This document shows positions 4,378-22,267 of a DNA stretch of 64,000 nt, one piece after another. Within the stretch, counting starts at the first letter, position 1; each line of letters starts with the position of its first letter. The notes below the pieces were generated by a model. That model was not told the DNA's origin. It ran no database searches and saw nothing but the letters and a program-made list of their open reading frames with translations. A program made the position numbers and the translations under genes. Source of the stretch: Streptomyces sp. P9-A4 (GTDB lineage Bacteria > Actinomycetota > Actinomycetes > Streptomycetales > Streptomycetaceae); assembly GCF_036634195.1 (NCBI RefSeq), contig NZ_JAZIFY010000001.1:930001-994000 (forward strand), read 5' to 3'.

Positions 4378-4395
4378 GGTTGGAAAAGGCTCACT

Positions 4396-6092: not shown

Positions 6093-6448
6093 CCCGGATA
6101 CGACTTCCCTGATGACCTGGCCGACCTCCAGGTCCGCCTGCACCGCGCCCGCGCCGAGCACGAGGCACTGGCCCGGACCTTGCCGTGGTCGGTTGAACCG
6201 AGCCCGGCCGGGAAACCAAGATCCACGGGACGACCGGCGCGGTCGTCGAGCCGGGCCGCGAAGCGTCCCCCGGCTGCACCCCCGATCAGCTCGCGGAGGA
6301 CACCCGTCTGCGCACCCTGATCCTCGACCTCTCCGAGCAGGTCCTCACTCACCCGCACTGGGCGACGATCGAACGCGGCCCCGCCCTCGTCGACGCCCGG
6401 ACCGCGCTGAAGGCCACGGCCACGGCTACCGTCGCCGCCGCGGCCTAA
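6093..6448 (+). pseudogene. Remnant of a conserved small actinobacterial protein
   Basis: Fused in frame to the transposase remnant, the sequence becomes YDFPDDLADLQVRLHRARAE then HEALARTLPWSVEP. This resembles a small hypothetical protein often seen in Streptomyces. A frameshift near 6210 breaks it. The rest continues in another frame (TPDQLAEDTRLRTLILDLSE, then QVLTHPHWATIERG, ALVDARTALKATA) to a TAA at 6446-6448. The native start is absent. Function unknown; it is a decayed gene joined to an IS scar. Confidence 0.55.
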
Positions 6449-6459
6449 ACCGGGACGGC

Positions 6460-6816
6460 CTTGCCTGACAAACATCTTGGACGGGTTCGCGTAGCCAGAG
6501 GATGAGTGCGGCAAGGTGGGCGTCAGCCTTGTAGCGGGCGGCGATCGGGCGGAACTGCTTGAGACGGTTAAAGCGGCGTTCGACCGCGTTGCGGGCCTTG
6601 TAGAGCCCGCTGTCGAAGGCCGATGGTCGGTCTGCCTCCGGCCTGTCCGCGCCGAAGACCGTTGGCCTTCTGCTCCGTTCGCTCCGGGCTCACTGCCCGG
6701 ATGCCCCGCCTGCGCGGGACCTGGCGGATGGCCTGGGACGAGTACACCTTGCCTGCGATGACCGCGTCAGGCCTGACGCGGGGGCCGCCCGACGCCAGCC
6801 AGGGGCGCCACACCAC
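6460..6816 (-). pseudogene. Second IS5-type transposase fragment, opposite strand
   Basis: The minus strand reads VRPDAVIAGKVYSSQAIRQV, RRRGIRAVSPERTEQKANG, then, after a frame change near 6620, FDSGLYKARNAVERRFNRLK, FRPIAARYKADAHLAALILW and LREPVQ. This is the C-terminal third of an IS5-type transposase, including the Y-x-x-R-N-x-V-E-R-x-F-x-R-L-K signature. The ends are not recognisable. It differs from the fragment at 5560-6092, so it comes from another insertion. Confidence 0.7.
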
Positions 6817-7107
6817 GGCCGATACAGCTGCCGACCACGTCGGTGACAGGTATCGAGCTCAGGTGACAACTATCGCGCTCCGGCACAACAGCCACGGCCT
6901 TCCGGTCTGGCGCACCCCAGAGGCATAGAATCGAACATGTGAACGATGCAGCGGGGTGGGCTGCGCCGCTCACTCCCCCCGGACCTCCCGCGCCTCCTGG
7001 TCGTGGAGACCTACCAATCCGGGTCGTTGATGATCATCACGGGGCCGCCGAGCGCGCTTCCGGCCAAGGACGATCGACCGGCCTTGGAGGTCGCACGCCC
7101 GGACCGG

Positions 7108-8226: not shown

Positions 8227-8348
8227 CCCGCGATTGTGCCGGAGCGACCGCGGAGCGGACCTTGATTTCCCGGGGGACGAACCGCAGCGAGGCCTGCGCC
8301 GCTCGGGAGGCCCCCCGCCCGCGCGGGTGCCCCGGGCGGGCTTCCGGG

Positions 8349-8654
8349 TCAGGCCGTCCGGCGGCGGCGGGCGCGGAGCAGGCGGGCGCCCTTCACCGCG
8401 TAGACGGCGGTCATGAGCGCGAGACCGGCGAGGCAGAGCCAGGCCCAGGATGCCGTCAGGAAGAGGCTCAGCATCAGACCGACGAACATGAGCAGGCTGC
8501 CGAGGGTGTCCAGCAGGTCGAAACGCCCTTGGGAGCGCAGCGCGGGGTCGGTGTCGCGCATCCGGCGGATGACGGGGACGAGGCCCACGGACTGGAGGGC
8601 CGTCAGGCCGAGCGCGATCCATACGAACCAGTCGGGTATGTCCACGGCGCGCAC
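8349..8654 (-). CDS. Small integral membrane protein
   Basis: 101 residues starting at GTG 8654. Three hydrophobic spans are visible: WFVWIALGLTALQSVGLVPV, LGSLLMFVGLMLSLFLTASW and WLCLAGLALMTAVYAV. A short Arg-rich tail (LLRARRRRTA) marks the cytoplasmic end by the positive-inside rule. No enzyme motif is present. It lies between the NADAR gene and the ABC-F gene, all on the minus strand, with more than 120 bp on each side, so co-transcription is not obvious. Confidence 0.65.
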   Translation of the reverse strand: MRAVDIPDWFVWIALGLTALQSVGLVPVIRRMRDTDPALRSQGRFDLLDTLGSLLMFVGLMLSLFLTASWAWLCLAGLALMTAVYAVKGARLLRARRRRTA

Positions 8655-8824
8655 TGTACCGCCCGCCGATCGCTTCCGGCCTTCGGGTGAACAGAGCCTG
8701 GCGCCGCCCGGACCCGGTGCTCATCCGGCCAACGCCCCACGAGCGAGAGCACATTCGGGGTTGGCGTGCCGTCGAAGGGCCCCCACCGCCTCCGCCGCGC
8801 GGGCCCTTCCTCCTCGCGGCCGGC

Positions 8825-10477
8825 TCAGACCGGGATGCCCGGGCCCCAGTACGGGCCGTCGTGTTCGCGGACCTTGCCGTCGTCGTCGAGGACCACGAAG
8901 CGGTCGAAGGTGCGGGCGAACCAGCGGTCGTGGGTGACCGAGAGGACCGTGCCCTCGAAGAGTTCGAGCGCCGCCTCCAGGGCCTCGGCGCTGTGCAGGT
9001 CCAGGTTGTCCGTGGGTTCGTCGAGCAACAGCAGCGTGGCGCCCTGCAGTTCGAGCAGCAGGATCTGGAAGCGGGCCTGCTGGCCGCCGGACAGCGACTC
9101 GAAGGTCTGATCGGCCTGGGCCTGGAGTTCGTAGCGCCGCAGCGCGGACACCGCCCCGCCGCGTTCCCGGCCGTCCCGGTCCCCGTCGCCCCGGCCCAGG
9201 ATCTCCACCAGGGTGCGTCCGATCAGGTCGGGCCGCTGCTGGGTCTGCGCGAACCAGCCGGGCCGGACCCGCCCGCCGAGGCGGGCGGTGCCCGTGTGGG
9301 CGACCGGCTCGCCGTGCCGGTCCGGTTCGTGAAGCTCCAGATCGCTGCCGCCGGCCGCGAGCAGCCGCAGCAGATGGGACTTGCCGGTGCCGTTGGCGCC
9401 CAGCACCGCGACCCGCTCCCCGAAGAACACCTCCAGATCGAACGGCTTTGTAAGTCCCCGCAGTTCGAGACCCTCGCAGCGGACCGCGCGAAGTGCCGTA
9501 CGGTCGCCGCGCAGCCGCATGCGGACGTTCTGCTCCACCGGGCGCTCCGGCGGTGGGCCGGCCTCCTCGAAGCGGGCCAGCCGGGTCTGCGTCGCCCGGT
9601 ACTTCCCGGCCATCGACGCCGAGATCTTCGCCTGCTGCTGGAGGGTGCGGACCAGGTCCTTGAGCCGCTGGTGCTCCTCGGACCAGCGGCGGTGCAGCTC
9701 GTCGAGACGTTCAAGGCGCGCCGTACGGGCCTCGTGGTAGTCGCGGAAACCGCCGCCGTGCACCCAGACGCCCCCGGCCTCCAGGGTCAGCACCCGGGTG
9801 GCCGTCGCGGCGAGCAGTTCGCGGTCGTGGCTGACGTACAGCACGGTCTTCGGGGAGGCCGCCATGGTCTCCTCCAGCTGCCGCTTTCCCGGTACGTCGA
9901 GGTAGTTGTCCGGTTCGTCCAGGAGCAGCACCTGCGCACTGCCCCGGAACAGCGCCTCCAGGGCGAGCCGCTTCTGCTCTCCGCCGGAGAGGGTGCGCAG
10001 CTCACGGAACCGGGCCTGGTCGAAGGGCAGCCGGAGCGCGGCCTGGGTGACGAGGTCCCATTCGACCTCGGCGTCGTAGCCGCCGGCATCGCCCCACACG
10101 GACAGCGCTTCGGCATATCGGATCTGGACGGCCTCGCTGTCCGACTCCATCATGGCGAGTTCAGCACGTTCCATGTCCGAAAACGCTTGCCGCAATTCCG
10201 GCCGGGCGAGGGACACGAGGAATTCGTGCACCGTGGTCGAATCCCGCACCGAACCGATGAACTGGGGCATCACCCCCAGCCCGCCGACCACCCGGACGGT
10301 TCCGGATTCCGGCTTCAACTCGCCTGTGACCAGGCGCAACAACGTCGTCTTCCCCAGTCCGTTCGCACCGATCAGGGCTACCTTGTCGCCGTCCCCGACC
10401 CGGAAGGACGCATCGTGAAAAAGCATCCGACCGTCGGCCAACCAGTATTCAAGACCGGAAACCTCCAGAAATCCCAT
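8825..10477 (-). CDS. ABC-F family ATPase
   Basis: 550 residues with two ABC domains and no membrane spans, the ABC-F layout. Domain 1 has Walker A GANGLGKT, signature LSGGEQKR and Walker B LLLDEPDNYLD. Domain 2 has GANGTGKS, LSGGQQARF and LLLDEPTDNLD. The linker (about residues 235-310, LHRRWSEEHQRLKDLVRTLQ, ISASMAGKYRATQTRLARFE) is the helical pair that enters the ribosomal E site. ABC-F proteins either act in translation or dislodge ribosome-targeting antibiotics. This one is transcribed away from the RiPP-like cluster that starts 210 bp upstream, which makes a self-protection role possible but unproven. Confidence 0.88.
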   Translation of the reverse strand: MGFLEVSGLEYWLADGRMLFHDASFRVGDGDKVALIGANGLGKTTLLRLVTGELKPESGTVRVVGGLGVMPQFIGSVRDSTTVHEFLVSLARPELRQAFSDMERAELAMMESDSEAVQIRYAEALSVWGDAGGYDAEVEWDLVTQAALRLPFDQARFRELRTLSGGEQKRLALEALFRGSAQVLLLDEPDNYLDVPGKRQLEETMAASPKTVLYVSHDRELLAATATRVLTLEAGGVWVHGGGFRDYHEARTARLERLDELHRRWSEEHQRLKDLVRTLQQQAKISASMAGKYRATQTRLARFEEAGPPPERPVEQNVRMRLRGDRTALRAVRCEGLELRGLTKPFDLEVFFGERVAVLGANGTGKSHLLRLLAAGGSDLELHEPDRHGEPVAHTGTARLGGRVRPGWFAQTQQRPDLIGRTLVEILGRGDGDRDGRERGGAVSALRRYELQAQADQTFESLSGGQQARFQILLLELQGATLLLLDEPTDNLDLHSAEALEAALELFEGTVLSVTHDRWFARTFDRFVVLDDDGKVREHDGPYWGPGIPV

Positions 10478-10620
10478 CGATCTCCCACCCCTCGCCGGCC
10501 GGTGTGACGCGTCTGAATCGGTTCAATCTCTCACGGCGGTCTTGAGCGAGAGAAATTGCCGTGACACCGTCGCCACCGACCGGCCGTTCGGGGCACCTCC
10601 CGTTCGGCTCGGCGACCACT

Positions 10621-10661
10621 GGGTGGTCGGAAACGGGCAACACCCGTGTTCCCGACCGCCC
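10621..10661 (+). promoter_or_regulatory. Strong hairpin in the 5' leader of the precursor gene
   Basis: The arms GGGTGGTCGG (10621-10630) and CCGACCGCCC (10652-10661) pair with one G-T wobble. They enclose a second helix, ACGGG/CCCGT, with a CAACA loop. The structure ends 26 bases before the precursor ATG and just before its ribosome site (GAGAGGGG at 10673-10680). There is no T-run. It could stabilise the mRNA, terminate readthrough or act as a regulator. Confidence 0.5.
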
Positions 10662-10687
10662 GTCCACTCGAAGAGAGGGGAAACACC

Positions 10688-10837
10688 ATGGAGTCCAACG
10701 CTCAGCGTCCGGAGACCCAGGAGACCGCCGAACTGCACCAGGCGGACACGGCCGGCACGCCGGAGCTCGAGACCGACGGTCTCGTCTTCAAGCGTGAACT
10801 GCTCAACGAGTTCCTCGGCAACCGCGTCCGCAGCTGA
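10688..10837 (+). CDS. Putative RiPP precursor peptide
   Basis: 49 residues, from ATG 10688 with a strong ribosome site (GAGAGGGG) seven bases before it. Residues 1-30 are acidic, Glu/Gln/Thr-rich and leader-like (ETQETAELHQADTAGTPELE within it). Residues 31-49 are GLVFKRELLNEFLGNRVRS: hydrophobic and basic, with no Cys and a single C-terminal Ser, so lanthionine or azole chemistry is unlikely. It is followed by oxygenase, radical SAM, ThiF-like, exporter and protease genes, the setting expected of a precursor. Its short length, SD strength and the following hairpin also fit. Which residues are modified is unknown; Glu37, Asn40, Glu41 and aliphatic side chains are candidates. It could instead be an unrelated small protein. 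Confidence 0.7.
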   Translation: MESNAQRPETQETAELHQADTAGTPELETDGLVFKRELLNEFLGNRVRS

Positions 10838-10844
10838 TCACCGC

Positions 10845-10883
10845 CGCCGGGCCCCGGGACCGTACACGGCCCCGGGGCCCGGC
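10845..10883 (+). terminator. Attenuator-like hairpin between precursor and enzymes
   Basis: GCCGGGCCCCGGG (10845-10857) pairs perfectly over 13 bases with CCCGGGGCCCGGC (10871-10883) around a 13-base loop. It starts seven bases after the precursor stop. Such partial terminators are usual in RiPP operons and give more precursor than enzyme message. No T-run follows, as is common in Streptomyces. Confidence 0.7.
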
Positions 10884-10937
10884 CGGCCAGCCGAATCGCC
10901 CGGCGCACCGCCGGCAGCCGACCGACCGGGGGGAGCC

Positions 10938-12437
10938 GTGACCGAAGTGGGCACTCCGTACGCCCGAGCCGAGGGCCGCGTCACCGCCCTCGTGGTGGAC
11001 CTCGACGCCTGGCCGCTCAGCCTGGATCCCTTCCATGTCGTGGACTTCAACCAGGCCACGGTCCTGGACGCCCTGGTCGACCCGCTCACCCGCGACCTCG
11101 CCCACGGTCCCGGCACCGCGCCGTCCGCGCTCGCCTCGCTCACCCCGCTCGACGGGGACCGGGTCTGGCTGCTGCGGCCGGCCCCCGGACAGTGCTGGGA
11201 CGACGGCAGCCCGGTGCGGACCGAGGAGATCGCCGCCGGGGTCCACCGGGCCTGGGGACCCACCGGTCTGCCGCTGCCCGCCGCCTACGATCCCGGCGGC
11301 ACCGGCTCCCCAGTGTCCACCCGGGTCGTGCCCGACCCGGCGGACGGCTCTCCGGCCGTCGAACTGCGCTCCCCGCTGCCGCTGCCCTATCTGCCGCAGC
11401 TCCTCGCCTTCCCCGGCGCCGCGCCCGTCCGGGAGACGCCCGACGGCGGCTGGACCGCGAGCGGCCCCTTCCGGCCGGTCCTGGCCGACCGCGCCCGGGG
11501 CCGGATCGAGCTGCGCCGCAAGCCGTCCCGCCGTACCGGGCCCGGCACCCCCGAACGGCTCGCCTTCCAGGTGTACGCCGACCGCGCCGACGCCTTCGCC
11601 GCCCTGGCCGACGGCCGGCTCGACCTGTCGGTCAACACCGGCCTGAATCCTGATGAGTTCACCGCCGCGTCCGCCCGCCCCGGCGCGACCGTACGCGGCC
11701 TCTCCATGGCCTGCCAGCTCTGGGTGCGCCCCGGCCTCGACAGCCCCCTCGCCACCCCCGCCGGGCGCCGCGCCTTCTCCGCCGGGTTCGACCGGCGGTC
11801 GGCGAGCGCCCTCCTCCGGCGGGCGGCCCTTCCGCTCCCTCGCTACACGGACCTGTGGGAGCCGCGCGGGACGGACCCGGACGGCGAGGGCAGGCCCGTC
11901 GGGCCGCCGCCCCCCGGCCGCCTCCCGCCGCGAGGCCGGCGTGCCGAACTGACCTTGAGTTACGCCGACTTCGCACCGAACAGCGACGCCGCAGCCCTCG
12001 TCGCGGCGGACCTCCGCGAACGCTTCGGCCATCCCATAAGGCTGCGCCCGCTCTCGTACGAACACTTCGCGCGGGCCGCCGCCACGCTCGACTACGAGCT
12101 GCTGTACGGCATCAATCCGGCCCCGCTGGCCCATGTGGCGGGCTTCCTCACCGGCTTCCACAGCACCTCCGGGCAGGCCCGCGCCTTCGGGTTCGCCGAG
12201 CCGGCCGTGGACGCGGCGCTCGACCGGGCGCTGCGTACGGCCGGGGGGCCGGAGGCGGCGCGGGCCTGGCGGGAGGCGGAGGCGGTGGTGCTCGACCACG
12301 CACCGGTGGTGCCGCTGTTCCAGGTCAACAGCGTGACCCTGACCGGACCCGGGTGCCCCGCGCCCACCGTGGCCGCCACCGGCACCCCGCACCTGGACCA
12401 CCCGCCCCGTACCGCCGTGCCCGACCGCGACCACTGA
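10938..12437 (+). CDS. Family-5 solute-binding-like protein without signal peptide
   Basis: 499 residues from GTG 10938, preceded by GGGGGGAG. The fold signals are those of peptide/nickel-binding SBP_bac_5 proteins: PFHVVDFNQATVLDALVDPL near the start, WLLRPAPGQCWDDGSPVRTE with the usual W-x-DG-x-P-x-T-A-x-D-V equivalent, then ERLAFQVYADRADAFAALAD and a C-terminal VVPLFQVNSV. Unlike transport SBPs it has no signal peptide or lipobox, and no ABC transporter genes are present. A cytoplasmic peptide-holding or chaperone role in the modification complex is an inference. It lies between the precursor and oxygenase genes and shares their orientation. Confidence 0.75.
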   Translation: MTEVGTPYARAEGRVTALVVDLDAWPLSLDPFHVVDFNQATVLDALVDPLTRDLAHGPGTAPSALASLTPLDGDRVWLLRPAPGQCWDDGSPVRTEEIAAGVHRAWGPTGLPLPAAYDPGGTGSPVSTRVVPDPADGSPAVELRSPLPLPYLPQLLAFPGAAPVRETPDGGWTASGPFRPVLADRARGRIELRRKPSRRTGPGTPERLAFQVYADRADAFAALADGRLDLSVNTGLNPDEFTAASARPGATVRGLSMACQLWVRPGLDSPLATPAGRRAFSAGFDRRSASALLRRAALPLPRYTDLWEPRGTDPDGEGRPVGPPPPGRLPPRGRRAELTLSYADFAPNSDAAALVAADLRERFGHPIRLRPLSYEHFARAAATLDYELLYGINPAPLAHVAGFLTGFHSTSGQARAFGFAEPAVDAALDRALRTAGGPEAARAWREAEAVVLDHAPVVPLFQVNSVTLTGPGCPAPTVAATGTPHLDHPPRTAVPDRDH

Positions 12438-12450
12438 AGGGCCGTACCGC

Positions 12451-13257
12451 ATGACGCACAGCCCGACCACCACCGCACCCGGCGCGGACGCCTCCGCGAC
12501 ACCCGGCACCGACGCCGCCGGCGCACCCGGCCATGCCCCCTTCCGCCCGGCCGACCGCTCCCCCGACGAACTCGCCGCCCTCGCCGCACTGCTGCGCGCC
12601 GACCCCGCCCGCCCCGTCCACCTCGACGGCTTCCTGCCGGACGAGCAGGCGTGGGCGCTCGGCGAGACGGTGCGGGCCCTGCCCACGTGGGAGGCCTCGG
12701 CCGTCCTGTGGAACCCTGACCGGCTCGCCACCCGACCGGCGACCCCGGAGGAGTGGCGCGCCGCGGCCCCCGAGGAGCGGGCCGCCGTCCGTGAGGTGGC
12801 CCGGGGCATCCCGGCCCTGTTCGACGACGGCTCGCCCTACCCGGCCGAGCACCGCGCCCGGCTCTCCGACTTCTTCGTCTTCGCCGGAATGGGCACGGTG
12901 CTGCGCGAGCTGCTCGACCGGTGGACGGCCCCGGGCGGGCCGCTGACCACCAACATCGAGTTCGCGCGCTACCGGTCCGGCGACACGCTCGGGGAGCACT
13001 CCGACGCCGAGTCGGACACCGTGTTCGTCCTCAACCTGTACCTGGACCCCGCCTACCGGGCGGGCGACGGCGGCGTCCTCGGCTTCCGCGACGAGGAAGG
13101 CCGCGAGCATCTGATGCCGCCCCGCTTCAACAGCGTGTCCGTGATGCCGATCCGGCCCGGCTGCGTGCACTGGGTCACCCCCTGGCGCGCCGACCGCGTC
13201 GGGCGCCACACGATCAGCATCGCCGCCGTTCCCGCGACCCCCGGTGAGGTGAAGTGA
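12451..13257 (+). CDS. Fe(II)/2-oxoglutarate-dependent oxygenase 1
   Basis: 268 residues, ATG 12451. A double-stranded beta-helix iron site is visible: His183-x-Asp185 (LGEHSDAESD), distal His240 (GCVHWVTPW) and a 2-oxoglutarate-binding Arg252 (GRHTISI). FNSVSVMPIR just before the distal His is typical of prolyl-hydroxylase-like oxygenases. Residues 1-40 are Ala/Thr/Pro-rich and probably disordered. Expected chemistry is hydroxylation, or an oxidation derived from it, of the precursor core. It clearly resembles the enzyme at 15520-16278 along its length (HLDGFLPDEQAWAL versus HLRDFLRPDFATDL). The radical SAM gene begins two bases after its stop. Confidence 0.85.
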   Translation: MTHSPTTTAPGADASATPGTDAAGAPGHAPFRPADRSPDELAALAALLRADPARPVHLDGFLPDEQAWALGETVRALPTWEASAVLWNPDRLATRPATPEEWRAAAPEERAAVREVARGIPALFDDGSPYPAEHRARLSDFFVFAGMGTVLRELLDRWTAPGGPLTTNIEFARYRSGDTLGEHSDAESDTVFVLNLYLDPAYRAGDGGVLGFRDEEGREHLMPPRFNSVSVMPIRPGCVHWVTPWRADRVGRHTISIAAVPATPGEVK

Positions 13258-13258
13258 C

Positions 13259-15391
13259 ATGACACCCGGCATCGAATCCGGCCCCGCCGTGCCCGAGGAG
13301 GCCGTGCCCGAGGAGGTCGCGCCCGAGGCGGCCCTGCCCGTACCGACAGAACCCATGTCGCCGGCACCCGTACCCGCCCGGCCCGGCACCCCCGGCCCGA
13401 GCGCCGGCGGCTCCGTCGTCCTGGCCTTCCCCCCGCTGGTCGAGTCCAGCTTCGGCCGCTACTTCCCGTCGAGCGCCGTCCTCGCCGGGTTCCTGCAGAG
13501 CCGCAAGGTCCGCACCCACCAGTGGGACCTCAACGAGGAGTTCGCCCTGCACCTGCTCGACCCCGGCCATCTGGCCGAGGCCGGCGCGGGCCGACTCGTC
13601 GGCCTGGAAGGCTGCTACCCCGAGGAGATGAGCGCCGTCGCGGGCCGCTGGCTCGCCCGCCACCGCGACGCCCTCTTCGACGAGCTCGGCCGGCACATCT
13701 TCGCCGCCGAGTCCGGCCCGGCGTTCCTGCTGTCCGCGCTGGCGCAGCCGTACCTGATCGACCCGGAGGCCGAGTGGCTGACCGATCCGGCGCTGCTGCG
13801 CTCGGACCGCACGCTGGTCTTCCGCTCGTACTACGCCTCGCTCGGCCTGGCCGCCCGGCTGCCCGAGGACGCCCGCCTCCTGGGCGTGTCCGTCCCCATG
13901 GGTCCGCAGCTGGTGCCCGCGCTGCTGCTCGCGGAGGCCGTCAAGCGGATCCGCCCCGACGTACGGATCGTGCTCGGCGGCCCGACGCTCTCCCTGATGA
14001 ACGAGGACGACCTCTCCCGCCTCCTCGACGTCCACCGTCAGGTCGACGCGGTCGTCCGTTTCGACGGCGAGGCCCCGCTGCTCGCCCTGTACCGGCAGGC
14101 CGACAGCGGCGACTGGCGGCCGACCGAGGTCGCGGGCGTCTCCGCCCTCGCCGCCGAAACCGCCGAAACCGCCGGAACCGGCGGAACCGCGGGAACCGCC
14201 GCAACCGCGACGGCCGCCGCGACCGCCGTCCACGCCCCGCCCGCGCCCGGGCTGCACCCCAACGCGCTGCCGCCCGCCGCGTACGACCCCGCGCTGATGG
14301 CCCGGCTCGTCGGCCACGAGATGGGCATCGTCCAGGCGCGCGGCTGCTACTGGGGCAAGTGCGACTACTGCGACTTCGTCGAGCTGTACGACGGCTCCCC
14401 GCCCTACCGGGGGCGTTCCGTGCAGAGCTTCATGGCGGAGCTCGAGCACCAGGTCAGCACGCACGGGGTGCGCCGCTTCGAGCTGATCACCGAGTCCATC
14501 CCGCCCGCGTTCGCCCGCCGTTTCTCCCAGGCGGTCATCGACCGCGGCCTGGACATCACCTGGAACTCCTTCGCCATGGTGGACCGGCGCTTCGACGCCG
14601 AACTGCTCCAGCTGATGGTCCGGGCCGGCTGCGAGTACCTCGTCATCGGCATGGAGACCACCAACACCCGCGTCCTGAAGCTGGTCCACAAGTCCGCGGA
14701 CCGCGAGGAGAACCTCCGCTTCATCCGCGAGGCCCACCAGGCCGGCATGAAGCTGCGGATCAACCTGATCCCCGATCTGCCCTCCACCACTCTGGAGGAG
14801 GCCATGGAGTCGCTGCGGGACGTGGCCGAACTCGCCGACTGCGTGGAGTCCTTCACCGTCTTCCCGTTCGAGGCGACCCGATCCTCCGAGGTCGGCCGCC
14901 GCCCCGAGCGCTTCGGCCTGGTCGTCGGGGACGAGGACTCCGGGCTCGCCAACCAGGCGCAGTACGCGCTCAACCACCTCGGCAACATCGACCCGGCCAT
15001 GACCCGCGAGGAACGCACCGGCGTCCACCGCGCCTTCCAGGACTTCGCCATCGGCCACGGCTCCGCCCATATGCGCCGCACCGGCGACGAGTTCCTGGAC
15101 CGGCTGCCCGGTGAGGAGGAGACGTTCCGGCTGGGCGTCGCGTCCCTGGACGTCCTGCCGCGCGGTGACGAACTGGTCGTCACCCACGTCCTGCGCCGCG
15201 AGCGCACCGTCCTGCCCGCCGCCGTGGCCAGGGGGCTCGCGCCCTGGCTGGACGGGAAGCCCCTGACCCGCCGCGACCTGACGGACGCGTACGGAACGGC
15301 CGGCGGCACGGCGGTGCTTCGGCAGCTCGTCGAGGCCCGGATGCTCACCGCCGTGGCTGCCACCGGACACCCGGAGCCGGCCCTGACCTGA
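13259..15391 (+). CDS. Cobalamin-binding-domain radical SAM enzyme
   Basis: 710 residues, ATG 13259. The N-terminal part (about 50-290) is a B12-binding-like Rossmann domain (LLGVSVPMGPQLVPALLLAE, VRIVLGGPTLSLM, DAVVRFDGEAPL). A low-complexity Ala/Thr/Glu/Gly linker follows at about 298-322. The radical SAM domain carries Cys363-x4-Cys368-x2-Cys371 (ARGCYWGKCDYCDF), one residue longer than the canonical CX3CX2C. ITESIPPAFARRF and IGMETTNTRVLKLVHK are further SAM-barrel strands. Relatives methylate unreactive carbons or form C-C links in RiPPs. The lack of the classical B12 DxHxxG motif means cobalamin use must be tested. Confidence 0.85.
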   Translation: MTPGIESGPAVPEEAVPEEVAPEAALPVPTEPMSPAPVPARPGTPGPSAGGSVVLAFPPLVESSFGRYFPSSAVLAGFLQSRKVRTHQWDLNEEFALHLLDPGHLAEAGAGRLVGLEGCYPEEMSAVAGRWLARHRDALFDELGRHIFAAESGPAFLLSALAQPYLIDPEAEWLTDPALLRSDRTLVFRSYYASLGLAARLPEDARLLGVSVPMGPQLVPALLLAEAVKRIRPDVRIVLGGPTLSLMNEDDLSRLLDVHRQVDAVVRFDGEAPLLALYRQADSGDWRPTEVAGVSALAAETAETAGTGGTAGTAATATAAATAVHAPPAPGLHPNALPPAAYDPALMARLVGHEMGIVQARGCYWGKCDYCDFVELYDGSPPYRGRSVQSFMAELEHQVSTHGVRRFELITESIPPAFARRFSQAVIDRGLDITWNSFAMVDRRFDAELLQLMVRAGCEYLVIGMETTNTRVLKLVHKSADREENLRFIREAHQAGMKLRINLIPDLPSTTLEEAMESLRDVAELADCVESFTVFPFEATRSSEVGRRPERFGLVVGDEDSGLANQAQYALNHLGNIDPAMTREERTGVHRAFQDFAIGHGSAHMRRTGDEFLDRLPGEEETFRLGVASLDVLPRGDELVVTHVLRRERTVLPAAVARGLAPWLDGKPLTRRDLTDAYGTAGGTAVLRQLVEARMLTAVAATGHPEPALT

Positions 15392-15519
15392 GCCCGCGCC
15401 GCCACCGGCCCGAATCGGCGACCCGCCGGACCGATCCGATCCGGGCGCGCCCCGCCCGGTCCGCTCCGGACCTCCCGCGACCCCTCCCCCTCCGCCCCCA
15501 CCCGTCCGTGAGGAGAACC

Positions 15520-16278
15520 ATGTCCAGCACCACCACACGGCCGTCGTCGCCGGTTCCGCCGGCCCTCGCCGGCGCCGCTCCCTACGTCGCGCCGCAGTAC
15601 CTGACCGCGTCCACGGTCGAGCTGCTGCGCGACTGGTACCACGGGGAGGCGGTCCACCCCCTGCACCTGCGGGACTTCCTGCGCCCCGATTTTGCCACGG
15701 ACCTCGCCGCCGCGATGCGCGCCATCCCCACCTGGTCGCGGCACGCCGCCAAGTACGAAGGCCGCCTGGGCAAGACCGAGTTCTGGGACGACGACGTCGA
15801 CGGCCAGGACGAGGTCACCATCGCCCAGTTCGTCGTCAAGGACATCCACGCCCTGCTCGACGAGGGCGCCATGGACCCGGCGTACCAGCGCACCCTTCAG
15901 GATTTCTTCGTCTTCTCGGTGCTCTCCGACGCGCTGCGCGACTGGATCGGCTCCGGCACCGGCCTCGTCCTGCGCAAGCGCACCACCATGGAGCTGGCCG
16001 CGTACCGCCGTTCCGATGCCCTGGGCGCCCACCAGGACCTGGTGCCCGGCCGGGTCCTCGCGGTCAACTTCTACCTCGACGAGGAGTACACCCCCGAGTC
16101 CGGCGGACGGCTCGCCTTCCGCCACGGCGAGGACGAGGAGTTCTTCGTCGAACCCCTCTTCAACAGCGTCTCCCTGATGCCCATCCGCGAGGACTGCTGG
16201 CACCGGGTCGAGCCCTTCACCCGGGACGCCGTCGGCCGCTACACGATCGCCATGGGGCAGCACCTGGAGGGGAGCTGA
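15520..16278 (+). CDS. Fe(II)/2-oxoglutarate-dependent oxygenase 2
   Basis: 252 residues from ATG 15520, preceded by a good site (GTGAGGAGAACC); the longer frame from 15508 is less likely. The metal and co-substrate residues are His171-x-Asp173 (LGAHQDLVPG), His228 (EDCWHRVEPF) and Arg240 (GRYTIAM). The paralogue at 12451-13257 shares FFVF, FNSVS-x-MPIR and the C-x-H-x-V-x-P-F/W block. A 128-bp gap separates it from the radical SAM gene. Its stop overlaps the next frame by four bases. It probably oxidises the precursor at a different residue, or a different step, than oxygenase 1. Confidence 0.85.
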   Translation: MSSTTTRPSSPVPPALAGAAPYVAPQYLTASTVELLRDWYHGEAVHPLHLRDFLRPDFATDLAAAMRAIPTWSRHAAKYEGRLGKTEFWDDDVDGQDEVTIAQFVVKDIHALLDEGAMDPAYQRTLQDFFVFSVLSDALRDWIGSGTGLVLRKRTTMELAAYRRSDALGAHQDLVPGRVLAVNFYLDEEYTPESGGRLAFRHGEDEEFFVEPLFNSVSLMPIREDCWHRVEPFTRDAVGRYTIAMGQHLEGS

Positions 16279-17306
16279 ACACCGTACGCCTGCTGCCCGC
16301 CGTCGCCGTCCACGAGACCCCGGACGAGACGCTGCTGACCCTCGGCCCCCGGCTGCTCCGCATCGGCGGGGCCCGGCCGGGCCTGGGCGAGGCGTTGCGG
16401 CGGCTGCGCGAAGGGACCACACGGGAGGCGCTCGGCGCGGCCTGGCGCCCCGGTGCGGCCACCGCGCTCCTCGCCGAGCTCCGCGAGCTGGGCTGGGTCA
16501 CGGGCGAACCGGCCGCGTACGGTACGGAGTTCGCGGGCGAGTCGTACGAACGACAGGTCGACTACCTCGGCCTGTTCACCCCGGACACCGGCGCGGCCCA
16601 GCACCGGCTGCTCACCGCCCGGGTCGGGGTGATCGGCCTCGGCGGCATCGGGGGCATCGTCGCCCAGCACCTGGCGGCGGCCGGTGTGGGGAGGTTCTGG
16701 CTCGTCGACGACGACCGGGTGGCCCTGCACAACCTCAACCGGCAGTTCACGTACACCCGTTCCGACCTGGGGCGGCCCAAGACCGAGGCCCTGGCCGACT
16801 ATCTGGGCGCGATCCGGGCCGGTGCCGAGATCGTCGGCGTACGGAGGCGGATCGCCACGACCGGTGACCTCGCGGCGTCGCTGCCCGAGGAGCTGGACCT
16901 GGTGGTCGTGGCCGCCGACACCCCGCCCGGACTGCCCGCCGTGGTCGCGGACTGGGCGGCCCGCACCGGCACCCCGACGGCGATCGGCGCGGTCGCCGTC
17001 GGCGTCGGCCTGTGGGGTCCGGTGGTCGACCCGGCCCGGGGCGGCTGCTGGACCTGTTCCGAACGGGCCCGGCGCGCCGGACTCACCGACCACGACCGGG
17101 AGTTCGAGGACCGCTCCACCGAACCCGCCCCCTTCTCCTTCGGTCCCGCCAATACAGTGGTCGCCGCCATGCTCGCGCATGACATCGTCGAGTTCCTGTG
17201 CAGCGGAACGTGCCCCACTCTGGGCCGGCGGGCGGCCCTGGACTTCACGCGTCAGCAGATCACCCACAGCGAAGAGAGCACGTGCACGTGTCCGACGACC
17301 TCATGA
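16275..17306 (+). CDS. ThiF/E1-like adenylating enzyme with leader-binding-like N-terminus
   Basis: About 343 residues if started at CTG 16275. No ATG or GTG exists in frame before residue 41, where TTG 16395 is the first alternative. CTG overlaps the previous stop (CTGA) and follows GGAGGGGAG. The N-terminal 75 residues (LLTLGPRLLRIGGARPGLGE, RRLREGTTREALGAA, LRELGWV) resemble the winged-helix leader-recognition region of RiPP ThiF proteins. The E1 domain has VGVIGLGGIGGIVAQHL, the acidic LVDDDRV, NLNRQF and GRPKTEALADYL. A CWTC pair and later cysteines may hold zinc. PaaA of pantocin and MccB of microcin C7 are known relatives that activate carboxylates or amides on peptides. Confidence 0.8.
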   Translation: MNTVRLLPAVAVHETPDETLLTLGPRLLRIGGARPGLGEALRRLREGTTREALGAAWRPGAATALLAELRELGWVTGEPAAYGTEFAGESYERQVDYLGLFTPDTGAAQHRLLTARVGVIGLGGIGGIVAQHLAAAGVGRFWLVDDDRVALHNLNRQFTYTRSDLGRPKTEALADYLGAIRAGAEIVGVRRRIATTGDLAASLPEELDLVVVAADTPPGLPAVVADWAARTGTPTAIGAVAVGVGLWGPVVDPARGGCWTCSERARRAGLTDHDREFEDRSTEPAPFSFGPANTVVAAMLAHDIVEFLCSGTCPTLGRRAALDFTRQQITHSEESTCTCPTTS

Positions 17307-18838
17307 CCGATCAGCAGCAACTACCGGAGCAGCGGGCGGGCGACAAGCCGCCCCCCCGGGAACAGGCCACCGGCGGACGGCCCGGGGAGAAGCCGAAGAA
17401 GGCTCCGTTCCGGGGCACCGGCTTCCTCCGTCTGTGGACCGGCGAGACCCTGTCCCTCGCCGGCACCGAGATCACCTTCATGGCGATCGGCATCACCGCC
17501 GCGACCACCCTCGCGGCCACCCCGTGGCAGATGGGCGTCCTGGAGGCCGCCGAGTCCGCCGCGGTGCTGCTGCTCGGCCTGTCGGCCGGCGTCTGGGCGG
17601 ACCGGTACGAGCGGCGCGCCCTCATGATCGTGGCCAACGCGGCCCGGGGACTGCTGCTCTTCGCGATCCCGCTGCTCTTCTGGTTCGACGCGCTCACCAT
17701 GCCGGTCCTGTACGGCGTCGTCTTCCTGGTCGGCGCCTTCACCCTGCTCTTCGACAGCGCGATGTCGGCCTATCTGCCCCGGCTGCTGCCGCGCGGGCAA
17801 CTGGAGCGCGCCAACTCCTGGATGGAGGCCAGCACCTCCGTCGGCACCGTCGCCGGACCGGGGCTCGCCGGTCTGCTCATCCAGGTCGTGAGCGCGCCGG
17901 TCGCCCTGGTCGTGGACTGCTTCTCGTACGTGATCAGCTGCTTCACGCTGGCCGGTCTGCCCAAGGCCGCTCCTGCGCCCGCCGATCCGGCGGACGACGG
18001 CGAGCGCGAGGACAAGGGCGGGCACGAGGGCGAAGGCGAGCGCAAGGGCGACGGCGAGGGGGCGGAGGCCGGGGAGCGGGAGCAGCGGGAGTCGCACCGC
18101 AAGGCTGTGCTCAAGGGGCTGCTCGTGCTGCGGGACGACCGCATCCAGCGCCCGATGATCCTGGCCGCCACCCACTTCAACATCTTCCACGCGATGTTCT
18201 TCGCGGTGCACACCCTCTTCGTGCTCCGCGTCCTCGGCTTCAGTCCGGGTCTGCTCGGCGCCACCAGCATGGCGGGCGGCGTCGCCGGTCTGCTCGGCGC
18301 GTCCTCGACCCCGTTCCTCACCCGGCTGTTCGGCCAGGGCCGGGCCCTCGTCCTCGCGTACGCCGCACCCGGCGTCTCGGCGGTCCTCGTCCCGCTCGCC
18401 GTGCAGTGGGACAACCGTGCGCTCTCCATCTTCCTGGTGTCGGCCTCCACCTTCACCTGGACCTTCGCGGTCGTGGTCAACCTGGTCATCAGCGAGACGG
18501 TGAAGCAGAGCCTGGTCCCCGACCACCTGCTCGGCCGGGTCACCGCCACCACCCGCTTCGTCAGCTGGGGGTGCCAGCCGGTGGGCGCGCTGCTCGGCGG
18601 CTGGCTCGGCGGGCGCTTCGGTCTTGCCGAGGTCATGTACGTGTCGGCGGCCGGTCTCCTCACGTCGGCGCTCTGGCCCCTGCTCAGCCCGGTCCGCGCG
18701 CTCCGGGGCACCGAGGGCGACGCCCTCCCGGGCACCGGGGGCGGGGACGGCGACGCGGGCGGCTCGCCGCTCGGGACGGCTGCCGCCCCCGCCGACGACA
18801 CCCCCCACCCGAAGACCGCGCCTCCCACCGAGCCGTAG
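17282..18838 (+). CDS. MFS transporter, probable exporter
   Basis: About 518 residues from GTG 17282, five bases after AGAGAG. GTG 17288 and ATG 17303 (overlapping the ThiF stop as ATGA) are alternatives. Residues 1-40 are charged and disordered. Twelve spans are expected: the first half runs from FLRLWTGETLSLAGTEITFM to VVDCFSYVISCFTLAGL. A charged loop of about 45 residues rich in Glu, Gly and Lys follows, then the second half. The A motif GVWADRYERRALMI is clear. It is like MFS_3 exporters of the enterobactin/macrolide type. Its place inside the operon suggests peptide export and possibly immunity. Confidence 0.85.
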   Translation: MHVSDDLMTDQQQLPEQRAGDKPPPREQATGGRPGEKPKKAPFRGTGFLRLWTGETLSLAGTEITFMAIGITAATTLAATPWQMGVLEAAESAAVLLLGLSAGVWADRYERRALMIVANAARGLLLFAIPLLFWFDALTMPVLYGVVFLVGAFTLLFDSAMSAYLPRLLPRGQLERANSWMEASTSVGTVAGPGLAGLLIQVVSAPVALVVDCFSYVISCFTLAGLPKAAPAPADPADDGEREDKGGHEGEGERKGDGEGAEAGEREQRESHRKAVLKGLLVLRDDRIQRPMILAATHFNIFHAMFFAVHTLFVLRVLGFSPGLLGATSMAGGVAGLLGASSTPFLTRLFGQGRALVLAYAAPGVSAVLVPLAVQWDNRALSIFLVSASTFTWTFAVVVNLVISETVKQSLVPDHLLGRVTATTRFVSWGCQPVGALLGGWLGGRFGLAEVMYVSAAGLLTSALWPLLSPVRALRGTEGDALPGTGGGDGDAGGSPLGTAAAPADDTPHPKTAPPTEP

Positions 18839-18845
18839 GAGCACC

Positions 18846-20144
18846 GTGCCCGTCCTCAGCCCCGTCCGCCACACCCTCTCCAACGGTCTGAGGGTGGTCG
18901 TCTCCCAGGACCCGACCGTGCCGGTGGCCGCGGTCTGCCTCTGGTACGAGGTGGGTTCCTGTGACGAGCCGCGCGGCCGGACCGGTCTCGCGCACCTCTT
19001 CGAGCACCTGATGTTCCAGGGCTCGACGCATGTGCCCGCCGGCGAGCACACCGCGGCCGTCGAGGACGCCGGCGGGCACACCAACGCCGCCACCGGCTTC
19101 GAGCGCACCGTCTTCCACAGCCTCGTCCCGGTCGGCCAGCTGGAACTCGTGCTGTGGCTGGAGGCCGACCGCATGGGCGGCCTGCCCGACGCGCTGACCG
19201 CGGAGAGCCTGGCCACCCAGCGGGACGTGGTCCTGAACGAGCGCCGCGAACGGTTCGACAACGTCCCCTACGGGACGGGCTGGGAGCAGCTGGTCGCCAT
19301 GTCCTTCCCGGCCGGCCACCCCTTCCGGGCCATGCCGGCCGGCAGCCCCGAGGATCTGCGGGCGGTGACCCTCGACGACTGCCGCGCCTTCTTCGGCCGC
19401 CACTACACCCCGGACCGGGCGATCCTCTCCGTCGTCGGCGACGTCTCCCCCGAGGCGGTCGTCGAGCTGGCCGAGCGCCACTTCGGGCACATCCCGCCGT
19501 CCGGTACGGGCCCCGGCGCCGTCGGCGCCCTGACCCGCACCGTCGCGCCAGGCGCGCCTGCGGACCCGGCCGAGGCGCGGCGGCACGTGGTGGAGCCGGT
19601 GCCGGGGCCCGCCTTCATGGCCGCGTACCAGCTCCCCGCGTACGGCGAACCCGGGTGCGCGGCCGCCGACCTGGCCCTGACCCTCCTCGGCGGCATGAGC
19701 AGCCGGGGCCTCCACGACCGGCTGGTGCGGCGCGACCAGCTCGCCCACACGGCGCGCGCGTCGCTGATGCCGCTGCGGCGGGCACCGTCCCTCGGCCAGC
19801 TCAATGTGCGGGCCCCGGCCGGGACCGCTCTCGCGGACATGGAGCGCGCGGTGGACGGGGAGATCGAGCGGCTCGCCGACGGCGGGGTCACCGACGACGC
19901 CCTGGAGGGGGCGCGAGCCCAGATCCGCCGGGACTGGCACGACCGGCTCGCCCACCCGGCCGGCCGCGCCGACGAACTCTGCGCCCAGGAGGCGTACTTC
20001 GGCGACGCCGCCCGCTGCGACCGGCACCTGGCGGGCGTCCTCGACATCGGTGCGGCGGAGGTCGGCGCGGCGGCTGCGGAGCTGCTCGCCCCGGCGCGGC
20101 GCGCGGTCCTGACGTACGAGCCGGCGCGGGAGACGGGGCCTTAG
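18846..20144 (+). CDS. M16 metalloprotease, catalytic subunit
   Basis: 432 residues from GTG 18846, with GGAG just before. The inverted zinc motif HxxEH is intact: His50-Leu-Phe-Glu53-His54, and the downstream zinc ligand is probably Glu132 in LNERRE. The first domain begins with the usual NGLRVVV strand. The second domain (from about 245) has AYQLPAYGEPGCAAADLALT and LGGMSSRGLHDRLVRRDQLA. M16 enzymes work as clamshell dimers on short unfolded peptides. With the inactive partner at 20311-21696 this should form an M16B-type heterodimer that trims the modified peptide or leader, as PqqF/G-like and AlbE/F proteins are thought to do. Confidence 0.88.
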   Translation: MPVLSPVRHTLSNGLRVVVSQDPTVPVAAVCLWYEVGSCDEPRGRTGLAHLFEHLMFQGSTHVPAGEHTAAVEDAGGHTNAATGFERTVFHSLVPVGQLELVLWLEADRMGGLPDALTAESLATQRDVVLNERRERFDNVPYGTGWEQLVAMSFPAGHPFRAMPAGSPEDLRAVTLDDCRAFFGRHYTPDRAILSVVGDVSPEAVVELAERHFGHIPPSGTGPGAVGALTRTVAPGAPADPAEARRHVVEPVPGPAFMAAYQLPAYGEPGCAAADLALTLLGGMSSRGLHDRLVRRDQLAHTARASLMPLRRAPSLGQLNVRAPAGTALADMERAVDGEIERLADGGVTDDALEGARAQIRRDWHDRLAHPAGRADELCAQEAYFGDAARCDRHLAGVLDIGAAEVGAAAAELLAPARRAVLTYEPARETGP

Positions 20145-20156
20145 GAGAACGACCTC

Positions 20157-20219
20157 TAGGGGTACGGCCCGTAGTAGTACGGCCCCCTAGGGGTGCGGCC
20201 CTTGGGGAGACGGCCCGTC
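20157..20219 (+). repeat. Four imperfect 16-bp direct repeats
   Basis: Units with a common TACGGCCC core: TAGGGGTACGGCCCG, TAGTAGTACGGCCCC, TAGGGGTGCGGCCC and GGGGAGACGGCCCG. They recur at 16-bp intervals in the 166-bp gap between the two M16 genes. Confidence 0.6.
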
Positions 20220-20310
20220 AGGCCGTGCCCAGACAGCACCACCTGGCCCCGCATCCGAAGCCGTCTCCGATCCCCCGCCCGCCCGCCGGTCCTTCGCGAA
20301 GGGTCCCCGT

Positions 20311-21696
20311 ATGAACGCGCCCGTCTCCACCTCCCCCACCCACCCGGCCGCCGCCGCCCGGCCGAAGCGGCCCCTTCCGGTGCCGGCCGAGCCCTGGCTG
20401 TTCCCCGCGCTGCGCGAGGAACTGCTCGCCAACGGCGTGACCCTGCTGACCTGTGACCGTCCCGGCCAGGAGGTGCTGAGCGTCGAGATCGTCGTGGCCG
20501 CGCCGCTCGCCCTCGAACCCCGTGACCTGGAGGGTGTCCTCGGCATCACCACCAGCGCCCTCGTCGAAGGCGTACCGGGGCTGAGTTCGCTCGACTTCAT
20601 CCGGGAGCTGGAGAACTGCGGCGCGACCCTCGGGGTCGGCGCCGAGCACGCGGGCCTGCGGATCACCTTGGACGTTCCCGTCCCGCACCTCGCCCGCGCC
20701 CTGTCCCTGCTGGTCCGCGCCATGCGCGAACCGCTGCTCCCGGCCGCCTCCGTGGACCGGCTGGTCCGCTCGCGCGTCCACGCCCTGGTCCGTCACCGGA
20801 CGGACCCGGAGCGTCGGGCCGCGCTGGAACTGCACGGCGCGGTCTTCGACGCCTCGGACCGGCGCAGCCGTCCCGCGCGCGGCACGGAGGAGACGGTCCG
20901 CCGGATCGACCGGGACGCGGTCGTCGCCTGCCACCGCCGGTTCCTGCGCCCCGCCGTCACCACCGTGGTGGTCGCCGGCGACCTCTCGGGGAACGGTACC
21001 GAGGCGGCACTTCGCCGGGTCCTGTCCACGTGGGAGGGCGAGCCCGGGACGCTGCCGGAGCCGCCCGCCCCTCCCGTGAGGGACGACCCGGCGGTGATCG
21101 TGGTCGACCGGCCAGGGGCCGTCCAGACCCGGCTGGTCCTCGGCCGCGCGGCGACCGCGCGCACGGCGCCCGGCTGGGACGCGCTGCTCATCGGGAACCA
21201 CAGTCTCGGCGGCTCGGTCAACGCCCGCCTCGACCGGGAACTGCGGGAGGCCAAGGGGTACACGTACGGCTTCCACAGCCGGCTGCTCGCGGTCGTGGGG
21301 CATTCGCTCGCGGTGGTGACCGGTGCGGTGGAGACCTCGGTGACGGGTGAGGCGCTCGGTGACATCCGGCGCATCCTGCGGGAGGTGGCCGAGCACGGGA
21401 TCAGCGCGCGCGAGCGCTCGGCGGCGGTCGCGCAGATCGTCGACGCCGCGCCGCTGCGCTATCTCAAGGCCTCCGCCGTCGCGGACGAGATCGCCATGCT
21501 GGTACTCGACGGGCGCGCGCCGGCCTCGCTGCCGGGCGCGTTCCGGCGGGCCGCGGCCGTCACCACGGAGCAGGCCTCGGCGGCGCTGCGGGAGGCGTTC
21601 GCGCCGGACCGGCTGGTGACGGTGGCGGTCGGCGACGCCTCGCGGATCGGCGAGGCCGTCGAGGAGGCGGCGGGGTCGGCGCCCCGTACGGTCTGA
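20311..21696 (+). CDS. M16 family protein, non-catalytic partner subunit
   Basis: 461 residues, ATG 20311. The fold matches M16 (NGVTLLTCDR at the first strand, FLRPAVTTVVVAGDLSG, LIGNHSLGGSVNARLDRELR). The zinc motif is missing: the HxxEH position reads ITTSALVEGV. It keeps the Arg/Tyr pair in REAKGYTYG, which in M16B heterodimers sits on the non-zinc subunit and binds substrate. This is the textbook split of labour with the upstream zinc subunit. The 166-bp repeat-containing gap separates the two genes. Confidence 0.85.
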   Translation: MNAPVSTSPTHPAAAARPKRPLPVPAEPWLFPALREELLANGVTLLTCDRPGQEVLSVEIVVAAPLALEPRDLEGVLGITTSALVEGVPGLSSLDFIRELENCGATLGVGAEHAGLRITLDVPVPHLARALSLLVRAMREPLLPAASVDRLVRSRVHALVRHRTDPERRAALELHGAVFDASDRRSRPARGTEETVRRIDRDAVVACHRRFLRPAVTTVVVAGDLSGNGTEAALRRVLSTWEGEPGTLPEPPAPPVRDDPAVIVVDRPGAVQTRLVLGRAATARTAPGWDALLIGNHSLGGSVNARLDRELREAKGYTYGFHSRLLAVVGHSLAVVTGAVETSVTGEALGDIRRILREVAEHGISARERSAAVAQIVDAAPLRYLKASAVADEIAMLVLDGRAPASLPGAFRRAAAVTTEQASAALREAFAPDRLVTVAVGDASRIGEAVEEAAGSAPRTV

Positions 21697-21823: not shown

Positions 21824-22267
21824 ATGACGCAGCGCGTGGACCTCGCGACCGTGATGGACCGGCTCGCTCTCGACGATCTCATCACCGGCTACGCGACCGC
21901 CGTGGACGACGGCGACTGGACCGCCTACCGGGCCCTGTTCACCCCCGACGGCCGGGCCGACTACCGGGGCTCGGGCGGGATCGAGGGGTCCGCCGCCGAA
22001 GTCGTGGAGTGGCTGGCCTCGACGATGCCCCTCTTTCCCGTACGCCAGCACCTCATCGTGAACCGCCGCGTCCTGTTCCGGGAGCCGGGCGGCTATCCGC
22101 TGACCGGCGACCTGGCCGACATCGGCGCCGACTACGTGAACCCGATGCGCTTCGCCTCCGGCGAGGACTTCGTCTGCGGCGGTCGCTACGCCTTCGCCGC
22201 GCGCCGCACCGCCGACGGCTGGCGGCTCCGCTCGGTCGCCGTCGACGAACGGTGGCGGCGCGCCTGA
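21824..22267 (+). CDS. SnoaL-like / NTF2-fold protein
   Basis: 147 residues from ATG 21824; longer upstream starts lack a ribosome site. The sequence fits the SnoaL_4/NTF2 fold: the opening helix VMDRLALDDLITGYATAVDD, then WTAYRALFTPDGRADYRGSG, with strands YAFAARRTADGWRLRSVAVD and a terminal WRR. Proteins of this fold act as cyclases, isomerases, dehydratases or non-catalytic domains. It is 128 bp after the M16 pair on the same strand, so it could be the last gene of the RiPP-like cluster, but nothing in the sequence requires it. Confidence 0.7.
   Translation: MTQRVDLATVMDRLALDDLITGYATAVDDGDWTAYRALFTPDGRADYRGSGGIEGSAAEVVEWLASTMPLFPVRQHLIVNRRVLFREPGGYPLTGDLADIGADYVNPMRFASGEDFVCGGRYAFAARRTADGWRLRSVAVDERWRRA

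Follow-up and report, generated by a model that had tools for sequence, protein, structure and literature searches.

The best reading by far of a gene block on the plus strand of Streptomyces sp. P9-A4 DNA (contig NZ_JAZIFY010000001.1; positions 10688-21696 of the 64,000-nucleotide stretch 930,001 to 994,000, called the window below) is a pathway for a ribosomally synthesized and post-translationally modified peptide (RiPP). This reading is preferred because a precursor gene under selection at its C-terminal end lies together with genes for an E1/ThiF-like adenylyltransferase (E1) fused to a RiPP recognition element (RRE), a RiPP-type B12 radical S-adenosylmethionine (SAM) enzyme, two Fe(II)/2-oxoglutarate (2OG) oxygenases, a pair of M16 metallopeptidases and an exporter of the major facilitator superfamily (MFS). 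The block also encodes a family-5 oligopeptide-binding protein (SBP-5, hereafter SBP). As to class, RiPPs of the ThiF-like adenylyltransferase kind are the best reading. We think it rather probable that the product is a small RiPP made from the precursor C-terminus, which would be activated by the E1, methylated, hydroxylated, held by the SBP, trimmed by the M16 pair and exported by the MFS protein, in a producer protected by an ABC-F protein. All genes named in a preliminary description of this DNA were found on this strand and in this interval, backed by Pfam matches and by a third-position GC content of 86-95%, and the ten cluster genes contain no TTA codon. What that description missed is a divergent ABC-F gene (8825-10477), although it is part of the cluster and the only clue to a target. 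The host genome is 7.5 Mb.

Loci with both an SBP and an RRE-fused E1 numbered 22, window included, and only the peptide, the SBP and the E1 are common to all of them. A contig scan with the radical SAM protein yielded 11 loci, namely eight with peptide, SBP, radical SAM enzyme and E1 (L003, L005-L011), the truncated L004, and L012 and L013 with the radical SAM gene only; E1 searches added L039, L041-L044, L094, L110 and L130-L135. Genomes were sampled at one per species, and the relatives' genes were called by a codon-usage caller and tblastn. The surroundings of 14 of 19 hits were covered in one E1 search and of 19 of 35 in another, so that further SBP-bearing loci are possible among the weaker hits.

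The 22 loci fall into five gene-content groups. Group I (window, L003, L005, L008, L039) has the order peptide, SBP, 2OG oxygenase, radical SAM enzyme, 2OG oxygenase, E1, MFS, M16a, M16b; the L005 contig ends inside M16a. Group II (L006, L011, L041) has peptide, SBP, one 2OG oxygenase, radical SAM enzyme, E1, MFS and a protein of 471-476 residues, which has no Pfam match in L006, is 78% identical in L011 and was seen as a 30% tblastn match in L041. In group III (L007, L009, L010), peptide, SBP, radical SAM enzyme, E1 and MFS are joined by a NodU-type carbamoyltransferase (70-73% identical among the three loci) and a GDSL-like protein (49-54%), both named from Pfam and NCBIfam matches in L009. 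Group IV (L042, L134, L135) comprises peptide, E1, SBP, a methyltransferase (PF08241, scanned in L042), a divergent ABC-F, a 2OG oxygenase and an MFS protein, and the radical SAM queries had no match there. Group V (L043, L044, L094, L110, L130-L133) has the peptide, a different B12 radical SAM enzyme (about 25% identical to that of the window), SBP and E1, with cytochrome P450 genes of a single kind in the neighbourhood of L094, L110, L130 and L132 at least; its members are mostly near-identical, and group counts are therefore not independent. Methylation and oxidation are thus common themes served by different enzymes. Of the unusual gene set listed in the preliminary description, the peptide, the SBP and the E1 are constant, whereas the 2OG oxygenases, the radical SAM enzyme and the M16 pair vary between groups and do not define the system. 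Homologous clusters lacking a small conserved gene at this place, which the preliminary description had named as a refutation, were looked for, and the outcome did not refute it; the sole exception was L004, a truncated group I relative not counted among the 22, in which the SBP has been lost as well. In this locus (Streptomyces sp. SPB074, 7045-10077), an MFS gene stands where the peptide, the SBP and the first part of oxygenase 1 have been lost, while the other genes are still open.

The precursor gene of the window (10688-10837, plus strand) encodes 49 residues with the C-terminus LVFKRELLNEFLGNRVRS. A gene for a peptide of 37-54 residues heads the block, and shares it with the E1 gene, in 22/22 loci. 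The next gene downstream is that for the SBP in groups I-III, for the E1 in group IV and for the radical SAM enzyme in group V. Every one of these precursors ends in Arg-[Ser/Cys/Thr]-COOH (8 RS, 1 RT and 13 RC); the Cys-free core noted earlier is true of this window, but not of the 13 precursors whose last residue is Cys. The precursors of groups I-III are clearly homologous. Their last 18 residues align without gaps and follow the pattern L-x-F-x4-L-N-[ED]-x-L-x4-R-[S/C/T], except in L041, where G replaces the N, and L32, F34, L39, N40, L43 and R48 are invariant among 20 aligned precursors. A profile search of a large protein set returned 30 precursor proteins at E <= 10, including that of the window, and 24 of them end in R-[SCT].

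Codon comparisons agree with the alignment. Between the window and L008, the proportions of nonsynonymous (pN) and synonymous (pS) differences in the last 18 codons were 0.025 and 0.37. Between the window and L005, they were 0.076 and 0.41 in the last 18 codons and 0.29 and 0.34 in the N-terminal rest. The group II pair L006/L011 gave a pN of 0.030 and a pS of 0.29, and the group III pairs 0.18-0.28 and 0.49-0.79; the precursors of the window and L003 differ by one synonymous change and no other, a pair too close to be informative. Judged from these substitution patterns, the C-terminal end of the precursor is under purifying selection and is the part kept by selection. Together with the homology within groups I-III and the constant leading place of the short gene in the block, this shows that the peptide gene is no chance reading frame, and it bears out the earlier proposal of a RiPP-type cluster whose precursor is real.

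The E1 (343 residues, 16275-17306, plus strand) matches Pfam ThiF with 133.9 bits and is nearer to MccB (PDB profile E-value 8e-40) than to PaaA (1.5e-22). In its predicted structure, strands within residues 3-31 and helices within 37-72 precede the E1 domain, and the model aligns to MccB over residues 2-342, i.e. over the full length including the leader-binding domain. The leader-binding-like start suggested in the preliminary description was accordingly recovered in the structural model as an RRE-like domain. The pantocin-type chemistry proposed there found no specific support: the E1 is closer to MccB, and the window precursor has no C-terminal Asn. The core motif of pantocin A is Glu-Glu-Asn, which is absent from the window precursor and from the 20 aligned precursors. 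The E1 residues GxGGxG, D145, NLNRQ, K169 and D215 do not vary among 11 E1s that represent all five groups, and in an E1 tree that omits L112 the SBP-linked enzymes all lie on one side of a branch with 99/98 support. E1s of this type were found in 16 of 392 genomes sampled from Streptomyces, one of the 16 being truncated, at a profile threshold of 1e-58 that was chosen after the best SBP-less E1 examined had scored 1e-55. A role of the E1 in activating the C-terminal carboxylate of Arg-[Ser/Cys/Thr] is likely, because this end is the sole element kept wherever the E1 clade occurs with the SBP. A defence-system reading of the E1 was rejected, all matches being generic E1-E2 ones.

The full-length E1 depends on an unusual start codon. 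The automatic call begins at a TTG at 16395, which would remove the N-terminal domain. Upstream of 16395, the window frame holds no ATG, GTG or TTG back to the preceding stop, and neither does the corresponding region of L004, L005 and L008; L003 has one GTG among the 272 codons upstream of the corresponding start. The longer reading contains residues that do not vary among ten aligned E1s, namely R5, L6, V10, L20, G24, L28 and R29. In six of six loci (window, L003, L004, L005, L008 and L039), the conserved part opens with a CTG, which forms the sequence CTGA with the overlapping stop of the gene before it and has GGAGGG(G/A)AG ahead of it. Since the frame in the window offers none of the usual start codons while the N-terminus is conserved, translation of the E1 probably starts from the CTG at 16275.

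The SBP (499 residues, 10938-12437, plus strand) matches SBP_bac_5 with 35.3 bits (cut-off 32.4), and both the family-5 profile and the predicted fold agree with this assignment. Neither the peptide nor the SBP shows an evident export signal, and we take the SBP to be cytosolic. By hydropathy alone, the highest 14-residue Kyte-Doolittle mean in the first 50 residues was 0.24-1.71 in 12 members from the loci (the starts of L005, L007 and L010 being uncertain) and 0.35-1.54 in 19 database SBPs, none of which has a lipobox pattern. Its best sequence matches include OppA2 of clavulanic acid biosynthesis, and its family-5 matches include the pheromone receptor PrgZ and also AapF, which was solved with a signalling molecule. 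We infer a role of the SBP as a maturation partner, i.e. a carrier or chaperone. A second family-5 SBP gene (231 bits) lies at 26226-27851 on the minus strand, 4.5 kb downstream of the cluster.

The remaining enzymes are all encoded on the plus strand. Oxygenase 1 (268 residues, 12451-13257) carries an HxD motif (EHSDAE) and scores 25.9 bits with 2OG-FeII_Oxy_3, just below the cut-off of 27; oxygenase 2 (252 residues, 15520-16278; HxD motif AHQDLV) scores 36.2 bits. The radical SAM enzyme (710 residues, 13259-15391; motif RGCYWGKCDYCDF) matches Radical_SAM with 46.0 bits and the B12-binding domain with 31.4 bits, short of the cut-off of 32.1. The best of 23 families for it is the RiPP C-methyltransferase family TIGR03975, with 81.8 bits against a curated cut-off of 281.85, which is not reached. 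It is single in the host genome, where the second match is remote (E-value 7.5e-4). As a stand-alone marker it was discarded: the enzymes of L012 (54% identical) and L013 (45%) come without an SBP, E1 or precursor-motif match. In L013, from an Acidobacteria metagenome-assembled genome (MAG), the gene lies beside those for a JmjC/cupin-type protein and a protein kinase (3715-7483). Next to its group III cluster, L007 has another, divergently placed gene for a B12 radical SAM enzyme of this family (9965-11947), which is 50% identical to that of the window. A plasmid location was also discarded; 46 plasmid records match the enzyme weakly and none covers >=80% of it. The MFS exporter (17303-18838) matches MFS_1 with 112.4 bits and also MFS_3. 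The catalytic M16 subunit (18846-20144) has both M16 domains and the HxxEH motif (HLFEH), and the partner (20311-21696) has no HxxEH motif and an M16_C match only. Precedents for M16 leader proteases are described in two papers (PMC10885120 and the IndF paper, PMC12150305).

The ABC-F ATPase gene (550 residues, 8825-10477) lies on the minus strand, divergent from the operon, and its product is a candidate ribosome-protection self-resistance protein. The best of 172 NCBIfam families is NF000355, ribosomal-protection ABC-F (260 bits), followed by the TlrC/CarA/OleB/SrmB family. Thirteen of the 22 clusters have such a gene: 5/5 in group I, where it is divergent from the peptide gene, 1/3 in group II (L006), 3/3 in group III (that of L007 lies just outside the fetched stretch and was placed by match coordinates), 3/3 in group IV and 1/8 in group V (L094). 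By our own arithmetic, the chance of finding an ABC-F gene within 10 kb is about 0.5% per locus, at one or two such genes per 8 Mb genome. The window copy is the second one of its host, the paralogue at 4.53 Mb being 63% identical. Copies were counted at E <= 1e-100 in 16 different genomes (G357 and G398 being the same, and those of L134, L135 and L130-L133 lying outside the count), nine of which have a cluster copy plus another elsewhere (the host, G304, G188, G394-G397, G170 and G583). G122 holds two, both of them away from its cluster, and the single copies of G362, G400, G339 and G064 lie outside the fetched cluster DNA. In the ABC-F tree, the only well-supported pair among cluster copies is window plus L003 (100/100); four group I copies stand together at 91/96, and the tree leaves the relation of cluster copies to the general copy without resolution. 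Because of the ABC-F gene alone, the product may act on protein synthesis at the ribosome, from which, by its family match, the ABC-F would protect the producer. Attenuation of the ABC-F by the peptide as a leader was rejected: the peptide is on the opposite strand and occurs without ABC-F, and in L010 the ABC-F is at the far end of the operon. Beyond the ABC-F gene, a NADAR-domain protein with DUF7638/DUF7639 is encoded at 7108-8226 on the minus strand. A SnoaL-like gene downstream (21824-22267) was not accepted as a cluster member, having been seen only in L003 among 11 loci, and not in L039. No YcaO family protein was present among nine cluster and 12 other window proteins scanned, and a YcaO/azole pathway was rejected on this ground.

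From gene content, conservation, the predicted E1 and SBP folds and the constant association of the two, each chemical step, the order of steps, the cleavage site and the target can be proposed as follows. The RRE at the E1 N-terminus would bind the acidic leader with its L-x-F-x4-L-N-[ED]-x-L segment, and the E1 part would adenylate the C-terminal carboxylate of the Arg-[Ser/Cys/Thr] end. Trapping of this adenylate, most likely by the peptide itself, would yield a ring or an ester-type end (expected shift -18 Da). The B12 radical SAM enzyme may add C-methyl groups (+14) and the two 2OG enzymes hydroxyl groups (+16 each) at residues among the last ~11, while the cytosolic SBP would hold the Arg-containing end as a carrier or chaperone. 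The M16 pair would then cut off the leader, the MFS protein would export the product, and the ABC-F protein would shield the producer's ribosomes.

Several observations weigh against this RiPP reading. The precursors of groups IV and V are not demonstrably homologous to those of groups I-III by sequence and share little with them beyond acidic character and the end residues. Six of the 30 database precursors do not end in R-[SCT] (three end in RP and three are C-terminally extended); all of these are variants of one sequence from the source 'ena'. Open reading frames (ORFs) with this end are not rare near E1 genes: a control scan for ORFs of 30-60 residues, with an ATG and a purine-rich upstream sequence, at most 6.5 kb from the E1, found at least one in 20/22 SBP loci (28 of 405 ORFs) and also in 6 of 20 SBP-less E1 loci (11 of 320), the latter a non-random sample of the better E1 hits. 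It recovered the precursor itself in 19/22 loci, missing those of L009, L042 and L134, probably owing to their upstream sequence. The ORFs of the SBP-less loci have no common sequence or place, except in the near-identical pair L046/L111. Since SBP-less loci have such ORFs, their mere presence is weak evidence, and it is position and conservation that carry the argument. The M16 pair was seen only in group I, and the DNA fetched for the other groups gave no M16 match, which leaves leader removal there unexplained. The ABC-F score is below the curated NF000355 cut-off of 380, no ABC-F gene lies within the fetched DNA of 9/22 loci (2/3 in group II and 7/8 in group V), and the cluster copy is the only one in two genomes, G357/G398 (L009) and MAG G399 (L010); its link to the cluster could be partly incidental. 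A C-terminal Ser, Thr or Cys cannot follow the succinimide route of MccB, and we know of no product, mass shift or mutant.

Three other explanations were weighed. The E1 could add a nucleotide to the C-terminus, as in a microcin-C-type Trojan horse. Once the peptide is processed, the resulting non-hydrolysable mimic of a Ser-, Thr- or Cys-adenylate would inhibit the corresponding aminoacyl-tRNA synthetase. In microcin C the last residue determines the target, and here it is S, C or T in 22/22 loci; the MccB-like sequence and full-length fold of the E1 and the MFS exporter would fit as well. MccB, however, uses a C-terminal Asn to form the P-N bond, and none of the 22 precursors has one; Pfam scans of the cluster and of a subset of its neighbours showed no synthetase, and the ABC-F gene indicates the ribosome instead. 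We regard this explanation as unlikely, and would place a macrocycle of the GrcB type equally low. In that case the E1 would activate the acidic residue 41 (E or D), and the side chain of the C-terminal Ser, Cys or Thr would close a nine-residue lactone or thiolactone, much as GrcB connects a Cys at the C-terminus with a Glu inside the peptide (PMC12250964). An E or D does stand at position -9 in the 20 aligned precursors and in L041, with S, T or C at the end, but group V has no acidic residue near -9, group IV has one shifted by one place, and the invariant Arg would be left unexplained.

Less probable still is that the peptide is a signal or regulator sensed by the SBP, with the enzymes acting on another small molecule. 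The signalling-ligand proteins PrgZ and AapF among the SBP matches are what this idea rests on; against it, peptide and SBP lack an evident export signal, the best family of the radical SAM enzyme is a RiPP methyltransferase family, and RRE-fused E1 enzymes, as far as described in PMC12250964 and PMC12150305, act on an adjacent peptide.

The RiPP reading can also be set beside known systems. Microcin C (MccA/MccB/MccC) resembles the window cluster in having a short precursor, an E1 that acts on its C-terminal end and MFS-type export, and MccB, RRE included, is the closest solved relative of the window E1. Unlike it, window-type precursors end in Arg-Ser/Cys/Thr and not in Asn, and to our knowledge microcin C has no counterpart of the SBP, B12 radical SAM enzyme, 2OG oxygenases, M16 pair or ABC-F. 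In the accessible parts of the sources (PMC12250964, PMC12150305), ThiF-like RiPP enzymes are described to make phosphoramidate, bicyclic, thiolactone, imide and indolylamide products. Pantocin A (PaaA) and the GRC thiolactone (GrcB) share with the window an E1-type enzyme and have the ATP-dependent cyclization that is predicted for the window, and the GRC pathway, as far as described there, also has radical SAM enzymes. The ind pathway of Streptococcus pneumoniae likewise combines a precursor, a ThiF-like enzyme, an M16-family peptidase and a transporter; its IndF indolylamide macrocycle is a Trp-Ile cross-link, whereas the window precursor has no Trp, and the cluster as described in the part of the paper available lacks SBP, radical SAM, 2OG and ABC-F genes (PMC12150305). 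OppA2, likewise an oligopeptide-binding protein of family 5, has its role within an antibiotic pathway (PMC7830376), but clavulanic acid is not a RiPP, and the window SBP lacks an export signal and shares a gene block with the E1 in the loci studied. No description of this cluster was found at the title and abstract level, mostly without subscription papers, so that its absence from the literature is unproven. The main text of a review of ThiF-like RiPP enzymes does not contain the words Streptomyces, actinobacter or ABC-F, and the available text of the IndF paper (PMC12150305) lacks Streptomyces and Actino.

Only tentatively do we suggest a distinct, translation-directed RiPP class, in which a cytosolic SBP-5, formerly a nutrient-uptake receptor, would have become the obligatory partner of the RRE-fused E1 and present the invariant Arg-[Ser/Cys/Thr] end for activation, with interchangeable methylating and oxidizing enzymes decorating a core of a few residues. 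The loci make up a coherent family of small, likely bioactive ribosomal peptides, and the Arg-[S/C/T] terminus together with the SBP and the RRE-fused E1 gives a testable rule for finding more of them. If confirmed, this would be the first oligopeptide-binding protein known to us that serves as a partner in RiPP maturation, and it would extend E1 chemistry; the ABC-F gene supplies a direct hypothesis for the target, the ribosome.

Two further arrangements were seen among E1 loci without an SBP. Eight of them (L045, L101, L103-L106, L108 and L109) have a basic ORF of 24-43 residues and a protein of 397-441 residues near the E1, with an E-T-T motif in the basic ORF of L045, L101, L103, L106 and L109; this looks like another undescribed family of E1-type RiPPs. 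In L112, a short Lys-rich peptide with a C-terminal Asn is encoded several times over on the minus strand, downstream of a gene for a 580-residue E1-like protein (6458-8200), which we report, by analogy, as a microcin-C-like arrangement in an actinobacterium.

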